Positions 14,649 to 20,914 of a DNA stretch of 46,310 nucleotides are shown here, in pieces. Each line of letters begins with the position of its first letter. Positions within the stretch are counted from its first letter, which is position 1. The notes under the pieces are model-generated. The model saw nothing but the letters and a program-made list of their open reading frames with translations, had not been told where the DNA came from and searched no databases. The stretch comes from an uncultured Alphaproteobacteria bacterium. GTDB lineage: Bacteria > Pseudomonadota > Alphaproteobacteria > SP197. The DNA lies in contig CALIUG010000009.1 of assembly GCA_938048755.1 (NCBI GenBank), positions 1 to 46,310 of the forward strand, written 5' to 3'. Position numbers and translations under genes: made by a program.

Positions 14649-15557
14649 TCAAGTGCCCCGTTCGGTCTTTCGTTCCTGAACCAGGGCCATGCCGGCCATC
14701 AGGACGATCAGGGCGAGCCAGACCCAGATGGAGTGGGTTTCACCGAACAGCACCATGCCCCACAGGATTCCGGTGATCGTCGCGACATAGGTCGCCTGGG
14801 AGGCAAAGACGGGACTGGTGCGTTGCAGGACATAGAGGAACACGGTGTAGCTGAGCGCGTTGATCGAGAACATCAGGACCGAAGCCCAGTGGGACTGTGT
14901 CCAGACTCCGGTGATGTCCATGAAGTTGTCGGTTGCCAGCGCGATGGGGAGCATCAGCAGGGCGCCGCAAAGCTGGAACGCACCGACAAGCGAGATGGGG
15001 TCGATCCCTTCGGGACCGCGCAGGGCGAGCAGCAGATTCTCGACCGTGAAACAGGCTGGAACCAGAAGCGCGAGCAGGGCCCAAAGCAGGGCAACCCCGC
15101 CTTCCGCGCCGATGGATGGCCACATGATCATCAGGATGGCAACAAAGCCCAGTGCCAGCCCGCCCAGGCGCAGGGCGGCGGGTTTGTCGATGCCCAGCAT
15201 GATCGAGGCACCATAGGTCATGATCGGCACCAGGGTCATGGTGATGGCCAGCAGGCCCGCGCCGATATTGGGCGCAACATAGAAGATCAGCCCTGTCGGC
15301 AGGGTCGTGCCGAAGATGCCGCAGATCAGATAGAAACCGATGGCACGGGGATTGAGCGGCAGGTGCGAGCGCCGAATGACCGAGATCGACAGCAGAAGCA
15401 GGCCGCCGCCCACGCCTTGCCAGACCGTCAGGCCAAAGGGGTGGAAACCGCCTTCGCGGGCAATACGGGCCAGGGCAAAGAACAGGCCCCAGGAGCCGCC
15501 AGCCACGACCAGGAGAAACAGGAACCACAGCCGGTGACGATCAAACGTCAGGCTCAT
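14649..15557 (-). CDS. EamA/DMT-family transporter, copy 2 of a tandem pair
   Basis: 302 residues from ATG 15557, which overlaps the upstream transporter stop by four bases. About ten hydrophobic helices in two EamA repeats; motifs GGSWGLFFALARIA near the N terminus and GILWGMVLFGET in the second repeat. Inner-membrane exporter or permease of the drug/metabolite superfamily; substrate unknown. It is clearly paralogous to its upstream neighbour (shared HPFGLTxWQGxGGG and ALIVLMAGMA/ALVTMLAGMA endings), so the pair may form a heterodimer or be a recent duplication. Confidence 0.85.
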   Translation of the reverse strand: MSLTFDRHRLWFLFLLVVAGGSWGLFFALARIAREGGFHPFGLTVWQGVGGGLLLLSISVIRRSHLPLNPRAIGFYLICGIFGTTLPTGLIFYVAPNIGAGLLAITMTLVPIMTYGASIMLGIDKPAALRLGGLALGFVAILMIMWPSIGAEGGVALLWALLALLVPACFTVENLLLALRGPEGIDPISLVGAFQLCGALLMLPIALATDNFMDITGVWTQSHWASVLMFSINALSYTVFLYVLQRTSPVFASQATYVATITGILWGMVLFGETHSIWVWLALIVLMAGMALVQERKTERGT

Positions 15558-16486
15558 GTTGCCGTCACGGTGCGTTCGACCTTGCGTTCGCGCACCATCG
15601 CCATGCCCGCCAGCATGGTGACCAGGGCAACCCAGAACCACAGCCCGTGACTTTCGCCCAGCAACGCCATGCCCCACAGGATGCCGGTCAGCACTGTGAA
15701 ATAGCCTGACATCGACGCCAGCACCGGGCCTGCGGCAAAGATCAGCGCGATGAACATGCCGTAGCTCAGGATGTTGACGACGAAGATCGCCAGCACCGAG
15801 ATCTCCGCGTTGCTCAACGGCCAGGTGATGGGATACCAGGTCCCGGTCGCCAGCATGACAGGGGTCATGATCAAACCGCCGGTCAGGACCATGCCGCAGA
15901 CCAGCACCGTAGCATCGGTTCCGCGTGGGCTGCGCACGGCAATGAAGACATTCTCGATGGCGTAACCCAGAGGTACCAACAGGGCGACGAGGACCCAGAG
16001 CGGGTCGGTGATGGTGGCCTCCGAGCCTGGCAGGACCAGCATGGCGACGGCAGCGACGCCAAGCACAATGCCCAGGGAGCGAAGGAGCTGCAGCTTGTCG
16101 ATGCCAAGGGCGAGCGAAAGGAGGTAGGCGGCAATCGGCACGGTGGCCATCAGCATCGCCATGATCCCAGCCGAGACATGCTCGGCGGCATAAAACAGCG
16201 CCATGGTCGGCATGATCGTTCCGATCAAGCCGCAGAAGACGTAGAGCTGCAGATGTGCCTTATCGAGCGGCAGGCGTTTGCGACGGATGGCCAGTATGAC
16301 CAGCAGGATGACACCGCCGCCAATGCCCTGCCACCAGGTCAGGCCAAAGGGATGCGCGCCGTCCTCGGTTGCTGTCTTGGCAAGAGTCGGCACAAGACCC
16401 CAGATGCCACCGCAGAACACCATGGTGAGATAGATCGCAAGACGGCGCTGCCAAAGAGGGCGCGATGGATCGAAGATGGGGCGCAA
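15554..16486 (-). CDS. EamA/DMT-family transporter, copy 1 of a tandem pair
   Basis: 310 residues with about ten membrane helices. The N-terminal repeat begins with FCGGIWGLVPTLAKTA and includes HPFGLTWWQGIGGG; the C-terminal repeat has GILWGMALLGESHGLWFW. The two DMT genes overlap by four bases and are surely one transcription unit. The start lies 129 bases from the divergently transcribed uup start, so 16487-16615 holds both promoters. Transported compound unknown. Confidence 0.85.
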   Translation of the reverse strand: MRPIFDPSRPLWQRRLAIYLTMVFCGGIWGLVPTLAKTATEDGAHPFGLTWWQGIGGGVILLVILAIRRKRLPLDKAHLQLYVFCGLIGTIMPTMALFYAAEHVSAGIMAMLMATVPIAAYLLSLALGIDKLQLLRSLGIVLGVAAVAMLVLPGSEATITDPLWVLVALLVPLGYAIENVFIAVRSPRGTDATVLVCGMVLTGGLIMTPVMLATGTWYPITWPLSNAEISVLAIFVVNILSYGMFIALIFAAGPVLASMSGYFTVLTGILWGMALLGESHGLWFWVALVTMLAGMAMVRERKVERTVTAT

Positions 16487-16615: not shown

Positions 16616-18412
16616 ATGGCCCCACCGATCCTCACCCTGCGCGATATTGCCGTCCACGCCGACCGTGAACCCCTGTTCCAGGGGCTTGAGCTGTCGCTGG
16701 AGGCAGGCGACCGCTTTTGCCTGATCGGGCGCAACGGCAGCGGCAAGTCAACCCTGCTGCGGGTGATGTCGGGCATGGTCGATCCCGACAAGGGCGAGCG
16801 TTTTGTTCAGCCCGGCACAACCGTGGGCGTGTTGGCCCAGGACCTTCTGGACCAGCCGGAAGGTACGGCAGGCGCGTGGGCTGCAGCCGGCCTGGCCGAT
16901 GATGCCGGTTCGTATCGCGCTGAGGCCTTCCTGGATCGCCTGGGCCTTGATCCCACGCGCGAGATGGCAGGGCTGTCGGGCGGCGAACAGCGACGCGCCC
17001 ATCTGGCGCGAACATTGGCAGCCGAGCCCGATGTTCTCCTGCTCGACGAGCCGACCAACCATCTCGACATCCGAGCCATCGAATGGCTTGAGAACTTTGT
17101 CGGGTCCTGGCGTGGCGCTGTGGTGATCGTCAGCCATGATCGTGCCTTCTTGCGTCGTGTCACCAAGTCCATGCTCTGGCTCGACCGCAAGACCCTGCGT
17201 CGCCGGGATGCAGGCTTCGAGACCTTCGAGACCTGGTCCAGCGAAGTGGCCGATGCGGACGAGAAGAACGCCGCCCGGGTCGAGCGCCGCATCTCCGAAG
17301 AAGAGCGTTACATGGAACGCGGCGTCACTGCGCGGCGCACACGCAACATGCGCCGGGTCGCTGCTCTGGCCAGCCTGCGCCAGGAACAGTCGGCCCTGCG
17401 CCGTGCCCATCAGGCCGACGCCAGGATCGGTCTGGAAGGCGGCTCCTCGCGCAGCAATCTGGTGATCGAATCCGACGGTATCACCAAGACCTATGGTTAT
17501 CGCACCATCGTTGCCCCCTTCAGCACCCGTATCCTGCGGGGTGACCGCATCGGCATCGTCGGTCCCAATGGTGCCGGAAAGACCACGCTGATCCGCATGC
17601 TGACCGGTCATCTGGAAGCTGATTCCGGCACCGTGCGCCGCGCCGAAGACCTGCAGATCGTCTATTTCGATCAGCAGCGTCAGGCACTCGATCCCGACAG
17701 CACGCCCTGGAAGACACTGGCCCACGGCAACAGCGATCGCGTCAATGTCCGTGGTGAGTCCCGTCATGTCGTGGCTTATCTGCGTGACTTCCTGTTTGCC
17801 GAAAACCAGGCACGCCAGCCCATCCGCTCGCTTTCGGGCGGTGAACGCAACCGGTTGCTGCTGGCACGCCTGTTCACCCAGCCGGCCGACCTTCTGGTTC
17901 TCGACGAGCCGACCAACGATCTCGACATGGAAACCCTCGACCTGTTGCAGGAAGTGCTTTCGGAATTCCCCGGAACCCTGCTTGTGGTCAGCCATGACCG
18001 CGACTTCCTCGATCGTCTGGTCACCGTGACCTATGGCATGGAGGGCGACGGCATTGTGGTGGAATGCCCTGGTGGTTACGCCGACTACCGCCGTCAACAG
18101 GCCCGCATCGCAGCCGGGACGGTCGAAGAGAAGACAGGGGTGCAGAAGAGCGCACCGGCCAAGGCCAAGGGGCGCAAGAAACTCAGCTACAAGGTCCAGC
18201 GCGAACTGGATCTGCTGCCCGACCAGATCAGCGCCCTTGAGACAGAGATCAAGAAACTGGAAACCACGCTGGCCGACGCCGCTCTCTTCACCCGTGACCC
18301 CGATGCCTACAATGTCGCGGTGACAGGATTGCAGAAGGCCCAGAGCGATCTTGCCACCTCCGAAGAGCGCTGGCTGGAGCTCGAAGAACTGCGCGAAGCA
18401 GCGAACGCCTGA
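16616..18412 (+). CDS. uup: ABC-F ATPase, Uup type
   Basis: 598 residues from ATG 16616, placed at the family N terminus MAPPILTLRDIAVH; an in-frame ATG at 16574 is an alternative, and neither has a strong ribosome site. Two ABC domains without membrane segments: Walker A GRNGSGKST (38-46) and GPNGAGKTT, signatures LSGGEQRRAHLA and LSGGERNRLLLA, Walker B LLLDEPTNHLD and LVLDEPTNDLD. A Lys-rich linker and C-terminal coiled coil (KVQRELDLLPDQISALETEI) mark the Uup branch, which acts at the ribosome or branched DNA. Intact C terminus despite the foreign gene inserted directly after its stop. Confidence 0.92.
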   Translation: MAPPILTLRDIAVHADREPLFQGLELSLEAGDRFCLIGRNGSGKSTLLRVMSGMVDPDKGERFVQPGTTVGVLAQDLLDQPEGTAGAWAAAGLADDAGSYRAEAFLDRLGLDPTREMAGLSGGEQRRAHLARTLAAEPDVLLLDEPTNHLDIRAIEWLENFVGSWRGAVVIVSHDRAFLRRVTKSMLWLDRKTLRRRDAGFETFETWSSEVADADEKNAARVERRISEEERYMERGVTARRTRNMRRVAALASLRQEQSALRRAHQADARIGLEGGSSRSNLVIESDGITKTYGYRTIVAPFSTRILRGDRIGIVGPNGAGKTTLIRMLTGHLEADSGTVRRAEDLQIVYFDQQRQALDPDSTPWKTLAHGNSDRVNVRGESRHVVAYLRDFLFAENQARQPIRSLSGGERNRLLLARLFTQPADLLVLDEPTNDLDMETLDLLQEVLSEFPGTLLVVSHDRDFLDRLVTVTYGMEGDGIVVECPGGYADYRRQQARIAAGTVEEKTGVQKSAPAKAKGRKKLSYKVQRELDLLPDQISALETEIKKLETTLADAALFTRDPDAYNVAVTGLQKAQSDLATSEERWLELEELREAANA

Positions 18413-19432
18413 CAAATTGGAGCTAGGCTTTATCCGATAAATGGAGTGTCTGAGCGGGTGATTAAGTTTCTTACCTATTCCCATTTTTAGTTTTTCCTCA
18501 AGGGCATTTTGATTTCTTGATGGTGCAATAATGATTCGAACGATAGGTAAAGTGGGATAGTTTATACCTAGAGTCTTAATGTACTCTCGGCCATCGGCGT
18601 GTTGAAAAATCTGTTTTTTTGGCTTTCCAGGGCCAGTGTATTTTGCATCAAATTCAAAGTATCGCTCTTCAATTTCAGGAGTCATGGGTAACTGAGTCAG
18701 TCGAACTTCCCTCTCTTCCTCAAATGCTCTATGTTTAAAACGCACCATCATCGAAAGAAATTTGACTGAAGAGTCAATGATATCTAGATCGCCTCCCGAA
18801 GAATCATAATAATTAAAGAATGTTTCTTTGATAGAATGTATAAACTCACCAAATTCGTCATCAAATCGTTCGTCATTGCCATCGTATACAAAATTCCCCA
18901 TCATTGTAGGTGCTGAGAAATCGAAATCGTTGTATTCACTCATATAGAGCTGGAAGAGTTTCTTTGTGTCAAATACAATCGCGCAAACTTCTGATGCATA
19001 GCCTCGCCACTGACTAAGGAGACCGTTGTTTTGTTCATATGTTTGATCATCTGTGTGTGAACAGAAAGAAGTAATATAGGGAATTGTTAGGCCAGGCTTC
19101 CCATCTTCAGATCCAAGAGATGTGTTATAGAATGATCGAACAATTATTTCTGTTTCGTCTCGCCCAATCGATTTCCACCCACCCTTTTTTCCTAGGTCAA
19201 TTTTCTCTGGAATTTTTTTTGTTCGGTAAATTTTTTTTGAAAGATCAAGGAAGTAGGGGAGTAGTTTTTTTTCCATTTTTTGTTTTAGTAATTTCATTTC
19301 AGTTCTATCATTTAGGTCAGTAAATTTTGTAGCGAACAATGAATTACTTTCTATAATTCTCATTGCAGAATCAATGCTTGTGTAGTGAAATATTTCGTTA
19401 TGTCGATCGAAGATATCTATCTTAGGTGTCAC
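18413..19432 (-). CDS. DUF2971 protein on an AT-rich island; no stop codon of its own
   Basis: The minus-strand frame starts at GTG 19432 with GAGGAG just upstream and encodes 340 residues before reaching the uup stop. It has DUF2971 features: FHYTS (15-19), FATKFTDLNDRTEM, SFCSHTDDQTYEQNNGLLSQ followed by WRGYASEVCAIVFD, and EEEREVRL. The function of the family is not established. The DNA is about 35-40% GC by eye with long T-runs, unlike its neighbours, so it is horizontally acquired. No stop follows the domain: the frame continues antisense through uup to 16748, giving a potential 894-residue product. The start overlaps the stop of the DJ-1 gene by one base. Either a truncated acquired gene or one now fused to antisense sequence. 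Confidence 0.8.
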
Positions 19433-20028
19433 TAACTCCTCTGGGGCCAGTATTCATATTCCATGAATCGCGCGGTGCGGGCTGCCGTGTCTTCGCCATG
19501 GAGGCGTTCGATGACGTGGAGCGTCATGTCGATGCCTGCCGAGACGCCCGAGGAACAGATGATGCGGCCGTTATCGGCCCAGCGCGCGCCTTCCTGGATC
19601 TCGACCGTTGGCTCGATGCTGCGCAGCCAGTCATAGGTGTTCCAATGGGTCGTGGCCTTCAGGCCCTTCAACAAGCCCGCGGCCGCCAGGACATGGGCGC
19701 CGGTACAGACCGAGAGTAGCATCTCGACCTTGTCGTTCTGCTCGGCAACCCAGTCCGTGATCTCCGACCGTTTGACCAGCGGGCGGGTGCCCGCACCGCC
19801 GGGGACCAGCAGGAGATCGACTTCCGGCATGGTTTCGAAGGACCAGCGCGGTGTGATGACAAGGCCGCCGACACCGCTCACCGGCGCCATGGTTTCACCC
19901 ACCATACCGGTCTCGAACAGGGGTTCGCCGCCTGCGGATTCGGCTGTGATGAAGGCTTCGAACGGGCCGACGCAATCGAGCGGTTCGACACCTTCGAAGA
20001 TGTAGATGGCGGCGGTGCGTGGGGTCAT
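19432..20028 (-). CDS. DJ-1/PfpI family protein (isonitrile hydratase-like)
   Basis: 198 residues from ATG 20028, with AGGAA upstream; a longer frame would overlap oppC. Class I glutamine amidotransferase-like fold with the nucleophile elbow Cys108 in LLSVCTGAHVLAAAGLL and the upstream acid region near FEGVEPLDCVGPFEAF. This subgroup includes isonitrile hydratases and AraC-type regulators lacking the DNA-binding domain; no DNA-binding domain is present here. It begins 22 bases after oppC and is probably the last gene of that operon. Substrate unknown. Confidence 0.87.
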   Translation of the reverse strand: MTPRTAAIYIFEGVEPLDCVGPFEAFITAESAGGEPLFETGMVGETMAPVSGVGGLVITPRWSFETMPEVDLLLVPGGAGTRPLVKRSEITDWVAEQNDKVEMLLSVCTGAHVLAAAGLLKGLKATTHWNTYDWLRSIEPTVEIQEGARWADNGRIICSSGVSAGIDMTLHVIERLHGEDTAARTARFMEYEYWPQRS

Positions 20029-20050
20029 GTCGAGTTTCCTGAATGAAGGC

Positions 20051-20914
20051 TTAATGATCCCTTGGATCCAGCGCGTCGCGCAAGCCATCGCCGATGAAGT
20101 TGAGGCAGAAGAGAGTCGTTGCCAGGAACAGGGCCGGGAACACCAGCATCCAGGGCGAGGCCTGCATGGTCTCGGCCCCTTCGGAGATCAGCACGCCCCA
20201 ACTGGTCATGGGTTCCTGCACGCCAAGGCCCAGGAAGGAAAGGAAGGATTCAAACAGGATCACCTGGGGCACGGTCAGCGTGGCAAAGACCACCACGGGG
20301 CCCATCAGGTTGGGAACGATATGGCGCATGACGACCTGGCGGGTCGGTGCGCCCATGGCCTGGGCGGCACGAACGAAGTCCTGGCGTTTCAAGGTGAGGG
20401 TTTGTCCGCGCACGATGCGCGCCATGTCGAGCCAGGATACCGCGCCCAGCGCCACGAACATCAGGATGGGATCGCGTCCGAAAAAGACCATGAGCAGGAC
20501 AACAAAGAACATGAAGGGCAGGGCATAAAGCACATCGACGATGCGCATCAGCAGGGCGTCGATCGTGCCGCCGAGATAACCGGCCAGCGCGCCCCAGGTC
20601 ACGCCGATGGCAACCGCAACCAGGGTTGCCGCGATACCCAGCGCCAGCGAGATGCGCCCGCCGGTCAGGACACGCACCAGCAGGTCACGCCCGTTGCCGT
20701 CCGTGCCGAACCAGTGATCGGCATCGGGCGGCGTCTGGATCTTCTCCCAGTCGATGGCGTCGAGTTCATAATCCGACAGCATGGGACCAAAGACACAGGC
20801 CAAGGCGATCAGCCCGAGGATGACGGCCGAAACCACAGCCGCGCGGTTGCGCCGCAGGCGGGTGGTGGCATCGCGCCAGGGTGAACGCGGCGGGGCAAGG
20901 GTGAGATCAGTCAT
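20051..20914 (-). CDS. Oligopeptide-type ABC transporter permease (OppC/DppC-like)
   Basis: 287 residues from ATG 20914, overlapping the oppB-like stop by eight bases. Starts with a cytoplasmic tail (WRDATTRLRRNRAA), then about six helices. The EAA coupling loop is seen as RAAQAMGAPTRQVVMRHIVPN. GTDGNGRDLL and SFLSFLGLGVQEP are typical of OppC. Inner-membrane half of the channel with the preceding permease. No ATPase subunit gene is encoded next to it. Confidence 0.9.
   Translation of the reverse strand: MTDLTLAPPRSPWRDATTRLRRNRAAVVSAVILGLIALACVFGPMLSDYELDAIDWEKIQTPPDADHWFGTDGNGRDLLVRVLTGGRISLALGIAATLVAVAIGVTWGALAGYLGGTIDALLMRIVDVLYALPFMFFVVLLMVFFGRDPILMFVALGAVSWLDMARIVRGQTLTLKRQDFVRAAQAMGAPTRQVVMRHIVPNLMGPVVVFATLTVPQVILFESFLSFLGLGVQEPMTSWGVLISEGAETMQASPWMLVFPALFLATTLFCLNFIGDGLRDALDPRDH

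Follow-up and report, generated by a model that had tools for sequence, protein, structure and literature searches.

The minus-strand open reading frame at 16748..19432 of the window (the whole 46,310-nucleotide stretch of alphaproteobacterial DNA that was analysed) very probably records a solitary AT-rich DUF2971 accessory gene that was acquired between two convergent genes and that, in the sequence as given, is frameshifted shortly before its own stop codon, its antisense run across a neighbouring gene being open by chance. The apparent giant protein of 894 residues is an accident. What seemed to be a stop-less giant gene reduces to a small acquisition of an ordinary kind that carries a frameshift, which is a warning for the interpretation of long antisense frames in GC-rich DNA. 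As a by-product, the analysis yields a testable hypothesis for DUF2971, a family without assigned biochemistry, and the main interest lies in this poorly understood and apparently mobile family rather than in the window copy.

The displaced end of the DUF2971 gene

The frame starts with GTG at 19432 and is open throughout to 16748 (894 aa). As the preliminary description had it, the first part is AT-rich, and GC by position, which it proposed to follow, is 0.32–0.45 in this segment (18413..19432, minus strand) against 0.60–0.68 in 1.3 kb on each side. The window protein matches Pfam DUF2971 (PF11185) with E 3.1e-4 and 22.4 bits, narrowly above the cut-off of 22. The DUF2971 coding part in frame 0 (18457..19432, minus strand) is delimited by Pfam, PHROG 1762 and alignments A1, A2 and A4; of the 325 codons aligned, those down to about 18478 are family-like and the final few are already off-frame.

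To locate the end of the gene, we compared 14 homologue loci, 10 from genome contigs and 4 from viral contigs. Alignment A2 combines the window protein with 12 of them and omits L051 and L055, in which the frame is broken or cut. In all 12, the homologue stops in frame after a common C-terminal block, consisting of a serine, a proline three residues on and Y, F, L or H, with the stop following after 1–4 residues. This S-x-x-P-(Y/F) block is a feature seen in the present set and has no curated definition; in L059 a serine replaces its proline, and L045 and L068, relatives found otherwise, are without it. In the window, frame 0 reads ...GIGKKLNHPLRHSIYRIKPSSNLSG... and the block is missing. The +1 frame, past a TAG at 18477..18475, gives VRNLITRSDTPFIG, with TAA following at 18432..18430, so that a family-like end, NLITRSDTPFIG followed by the stop (18430..18468, minus strand), lies 17 nt (18413..18429) before the uup stop. 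The corresponding end in Thalassospira (L050) is ...LTRSHTPYVG and stop. We also scanned all six window frames with a PSSM built from 17 homologue tails, requiring a stop within six codons, and the +1-frame site ranked first of 8358 in the window (13.4 bits, with the runner-up at 11.3).

Because the family end and a stop are present in the +1 frame, the stop did not disappear at the border of the inserted segment, and the assertion in the preliminary description that the gene lacks its own stop codon does not hold. The DUF2971 gene has its own stop, put out of frame between about 18477 and about 18459: a change from frame 0 to +1 is obligatory within 18459..18477 (minus strand), since the +1 frame has a stop at 18477..18475 and resembles the family from about 18459 onward. 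A frameshift about a dozen codons before the stop, whether by mutation or by an assembly indel, would displace the conserved end together with the stop, with the consequence that frame 0 drops the last conserved block and continues across uup in antisense. Upstream of this point the near-invariant residues of A2 and A4 are kept (N41, D42, E45, S122, W142, R143, Y145, D155, Y183, K233, F237, E240, E242, R244, P296 and P304). A homologue from a Lake Baikal member of the Rhodospirillales (L051, 5015–5991) is likewise disrupted: its frame changes and it contains a stop. No copy of the gene from the same species was found for comparison.

The displacement could instead be a sequencing or assembly error, in which case the gene would be intact in the organism and end at TAA 18432..18430. 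We consider this rather unlikely. The assembly is fragmented (301 contigs) and, this one lesion aside, the frame is open and its near-invariant residues before the lesion are retained, as expected of an intact gene. However, gaps relative to the related genome G002 in the 32 listed gene intervals (for example at 2820, 7530, 13637 and 24307) are compensated by a nearby gap, are multiples of three or lie no more than about 100 nt from a gene end. No long homopolymer occurs where the frame changes, and the gene reads in frame through its longer T runs. Interior frame errors are therefore not abundant in the contig, a point in favour of a real mutation. Should the frameshift be real and the gene be translated, the window copy, which keeps the residues of its HYT and E-x-E regions, would lose its conserved end, gain an unrelated tail and probably be impaired or unstable, impairment being expected because its last strand is replaced.

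The insertion site and its counterparts in relatives

The segment lies between two intact genes that are both open and recognised by Pfam: a uup-like ABC-F ATPase gene (16616..18412, plus strand, start ATG; ABC_tran and ABC_tran_CTD), which stops with TGA at 18410–18412, and a DJ-1/PfpI-like gene (19432..20088, minus strand; DJ-1_PfpI, E 2.9e-19), which stops with TAG at 19434..19432. By direct reading, the DJ-1 stop and the DUF2971 start codon (GTG, 19432..19430) have one base in common in TAGTG (19430..19434, minus strand). The fit between the two stops is as tight as first described, but owing to this overlap the DNA strictly between them is 18413–19431, or 1019 nt and not 1020, and the multiple-of-three length of the segment is a coincidence. 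Likewise, the gene sits between convergent stops in the sense that it is tail-to-tail with uup, its only such partner; it lies on the same strand as the DJ-1-like gene and behind it. Given the one-base overlap and an AGAGGAG just upstream of TAGTG, the DJ-1-like and DUF2971 genes may be translationally coupled.

Comparison of the locus in relatives, another check suggested at the outset, places the acquisition precisely. The window's genome (4.16 Mb, 301 contigs, 92.7% complete) was compared at this locus with G002, the closest relative used and a member of the same genus, in which uup is 92% and DJ-1 85% identical. In G002 there are 0 nt between the stops: the uup TGA runs straight into CTA, which is the DJ-1 stop read on the opposite strand. 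When the window was compared by blastn with 60 kb of G002, the two were collinear for about 43 kb, with the match breaking at 18413 and restarting at 19445. DUF2971 is absent between uup and DJ-1 in all six relatives whose slot was read; the two stops are 12 nt apart in G010, about 90 nt in G009 and about 200 nt in G014. The C-terminus of DJ-1, which ends in ...WPQRS in the window and ...WPLT in G002, is variable among relatives anyway. A profile search found DUF2971 in one of the 16 genomes of the taxonomic family, the sole carrier being the window's own; with the own genome included each time, single-protein queries matched 3/61 relatives and 5/385 genomes of the class, and alignment A1 matched 21/398 genomes of the phylum. 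These results bear out what was originally proposed, the precise gain of one gene without damage to either neighbour, and acquisition in the window's own lineage is the simplest reading.

Two further features were noted during these comparisons. In G012 (L037 3270–3751) and G015 (L034 2536–3016), which belong to a genus of the family other than that of the window, the position behind DJ-1 is taken up by a different ORF of about 135 codons, on the DJ-1 strand and conserved between both. Within the window, two neighbouring minus-strand ORFs at 14649–16486 resemble tandem paralogues, short stretches of each matching the other's G002 counterpart at about 75%.

No pair of repeats or inverted ends of the kind left by a transposable element or a target duplication flanks the segment at its two joins, from which we infer that it was acquired by illegitimate recombination. 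Such a segment, bearing a solitary AT-rich DUF2971 gene, would have entered directly behind the DJ-1-like gene; illegitimate recombination has been put forward for many small variable segments in bacterial genomes (PMC2884548). Neither the promoter scan nor the terminator scan gave signals above those of shuffles. Joining of the AT-rich segment by chimeric assembly would also account for a gene present in no other genome of the taxonomic family, but is very improbable, as both joins fall at gene ends, both neighbours are open and several homologues occupy like slots in other genomes.

The antisense continuation across uup

Downstream of the native stop, frame 0 continues in antisense across uup (16748..18412, minus strand). 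Counted from the 3′ end, the frame opposite the uup codons stays open over 553 codons, and a same-frame opening of equal or greater length arises in 68 of 1000 codon shuffles and 106 of 1000 synonymous shuffles (7 to 11%). Comparable openings occur in relatives, where the uup antisense is open over all 582 codons examined in G010 and over 571 codons in one stretch in G014; in G002, counted from the same end, it closes after 27 codons, and the other three reach a maximum of 200–283. Other window genes are likewise open in antisense, for instance over 432/432 and 479/524 codons. The tail needs only codon use as its explanation and is open by chance, so the caution originally attached to it, that it may be untranslated or unstable, was well placed.

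The preliminary description had the segment inserted without a stop and the gene ending in antisense uup, as a protein of 894 residues. The frame is formally open to 16748, yet this account is barely credible: the C-terminal block and stop of the family sit in the +1 frame, an antisense run of this length is expected at the shuffle frequencies given above, and the corresponding antisense frame of G002 closes early. Programmed frameshifting, by which frame 0 would be joined to +1 and an intact protein still made, is compatible with the confinement of the frame change to a short stretch, but the 12 aligned homologues are single-frame to their stops and no in-frame stop or other pause signal is evident at the shift, which leaves it a negligible probability. 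A frameshifted accessory gene followed by a chance opening remains the preferred reading.

Spread of the DUF2971 family and its possible biochemistry

The genes of this family are AT-rich and mostly solitary, and they also occur on phage and satellite-like contigs. At every one of the 14 loci, GC is lower in the homologous ORF than in the flanks (in L051, L055 and L056, which are broken or cut, the fragment was scored). Of 10 neighbouring ORFs scanned, 3 have no Pfam family and 7 have one: GNAT and HMGL-like in L050, Lrp/AsnC in L049, an ABC ATPase in L052, alanine dehydrogenase in L054, and a class V aminotransferase and a phage-integrase-type recombinase in L051; a resolvase lies near L047. 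The downstream side could be read, by mechanical gene calls, at 10 non-viral loci (L045, L046, L047, L049–L054 and L062). Four of these (L049, L050, L051 and L062) are tail-to-tail with a convergent ORF at 35 nt or less, as in the window; L050 and L062 share their neighbours and may be one site. L051 lies 34 nt from the end of its convergent recombinase gene.

Several viral contigs show other arrangements. In L057 (4445–6616), an AT-rich DUF2971 gene lies between Phage_tail_S and Phage_base_V/spike in a moron-like position. In two IMG/VR contigs, an integrase and AlpA precede DUF2971 and AAA_25 follows it (L058, 2923–8419), or a D5-primase-like gene follows it (L059, 2163–6022); both look like phage satellites, “P2-like” and “satellite-like” being our own labels.

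With E 1.5e-10, the window protein is among the 12 of 13 A2 members that match PHROG 1762. To the PADLOC phage-defence candidate PDC-S31 it is similar only at E 0.037, whereas the best of the 13 A2 members reaches 8.7e-8. As a single query against the genome and viral contigs it found no relative, whereas alignment queries found some; tblastn matched one plasmid and no phage record, NCBIfam returned nothing for it, and a PDB sequence search gave a lone match at E 0.2. Our search of the open full-text literature found no mention of PF11185 or PDC-S31; DUF2971 is mentioned there in a single paper, on the re-annotation of a genome.

The preliminary description had suggested, as speculation, a resemblance to ADP-ribosyltransferases. 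We modeled the frame-0 part of the window protein (AlphaFold2; pLDDT 81.4, pTM 0.82) and the shorter viral homologue L058 (pLDDT 83.6, pTM 0.82) and searched both against the PDB with Foldseek. DarT chains occupy five of the first seven ranks for the window model (best E 0.074, probability ≤0.41); for L058, six DarT chains fill ranks 1–7 together with yeast Tpt1 (E 0.0095–0.093, probability 0.51–0.87). Among the top ranks of both searches E ranges from 0.0095 to 0.7, with none at or below 0.001, and TM-scores are low, from 0.07 to 0.42 (0.22–0.42 for L058, target-normalised). A BFVD search gave no match at E ≤0.001 (best 6.7e-3).

In an hhalign comparison of profiles from 36 DUF2971 and 10 DarT proteins with gappy columns removed, the HYT region aligned with the first motif of DarT (score 31.0, P 7e-4, probability 26%). 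None of 250 trimmed column shuffles reached 31.0, and reversed DarT and DJ-1 scored 17.4 and 9.9; in an anomalous untrimmed control, 3 of 200 shuffles scored 132–137, above the real 32.6. The C-terminal halves of the two families showed no significant similarity (P 0.35) and their global alignment was poor. PF14487 (DarT) did not match the window protein, for which PF11185 was alone at E up to 1, and a DarG antitoxin (macrodomain/NADAR) is absent from the two adjacent genes, which are DJ-1/PfpI and ABC-F. The fold of DarT, its H-Y-E motif and its role in phage defence are described in PMC11543638 and PMC10789625, and CmdT, another defence ADP-ribosyltransferase, in PMC11618068.

Two independent sub-threshold lines, from predicted fold and from profile, thus lend support to a relation with ADP-ribosyltransferases, which stays unproven. 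It is plausible, though somewhat short of probable, that the intact family is a small DarT/Tpt1-type ADP-ribosyltransferase-like enzyme encoded by an anti-phage or conflict gene; at a similar level of confidence, intact DUF2971 would bind NAD+ via the HYT strand while the E-x-E region modifies nucleic acid or protein in phage conflicts. More tentatively still, DUF2971 may be a solitary DarT/Tpt1-like branch without a dedicated antitoxin, which modifies a nucleic acid while phages infect and spreads, in the form of single AT-rich genes, among phages, satellites and chromosomal slots between convergent genes, the window copy just starting to decay.

Compared with known systems, the window copy is closest to DUF2971 itself (PF11185; PHROG 1762; PDC-S31 for some members): it scores above the Pfam cut-off and carries the stretches HYT, LND..E, WR.Y, FK(H)..F.EE.E.R and LPI..II.(G/A)P, but unlike other members it is frameshifted before its stop, with the C-terminal block off-frame. 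DarT, the toxin of DarTG systems (PF14487), takes top ranks in the PDB fold searches and its first motif aligns by profile comparison, yet the window has no PF14487 match and no adjacent DarG-like gene, and the similarity is below significance. The RNA 2′-phosphotransferase Tpt1/KptA, of the same superfamily as DarT, stands at rank 4 in the L058 fold search, but only about 79 columns are aligned (E 0.024) and there is no sequence-family match. At the level of the locus, the small variable segments described in PMC2884548 are likewise short inserts that lie between backbone genes and in which no sign of a mobile element is seen, although strains within a species were compared there and species of one genus are compared here.
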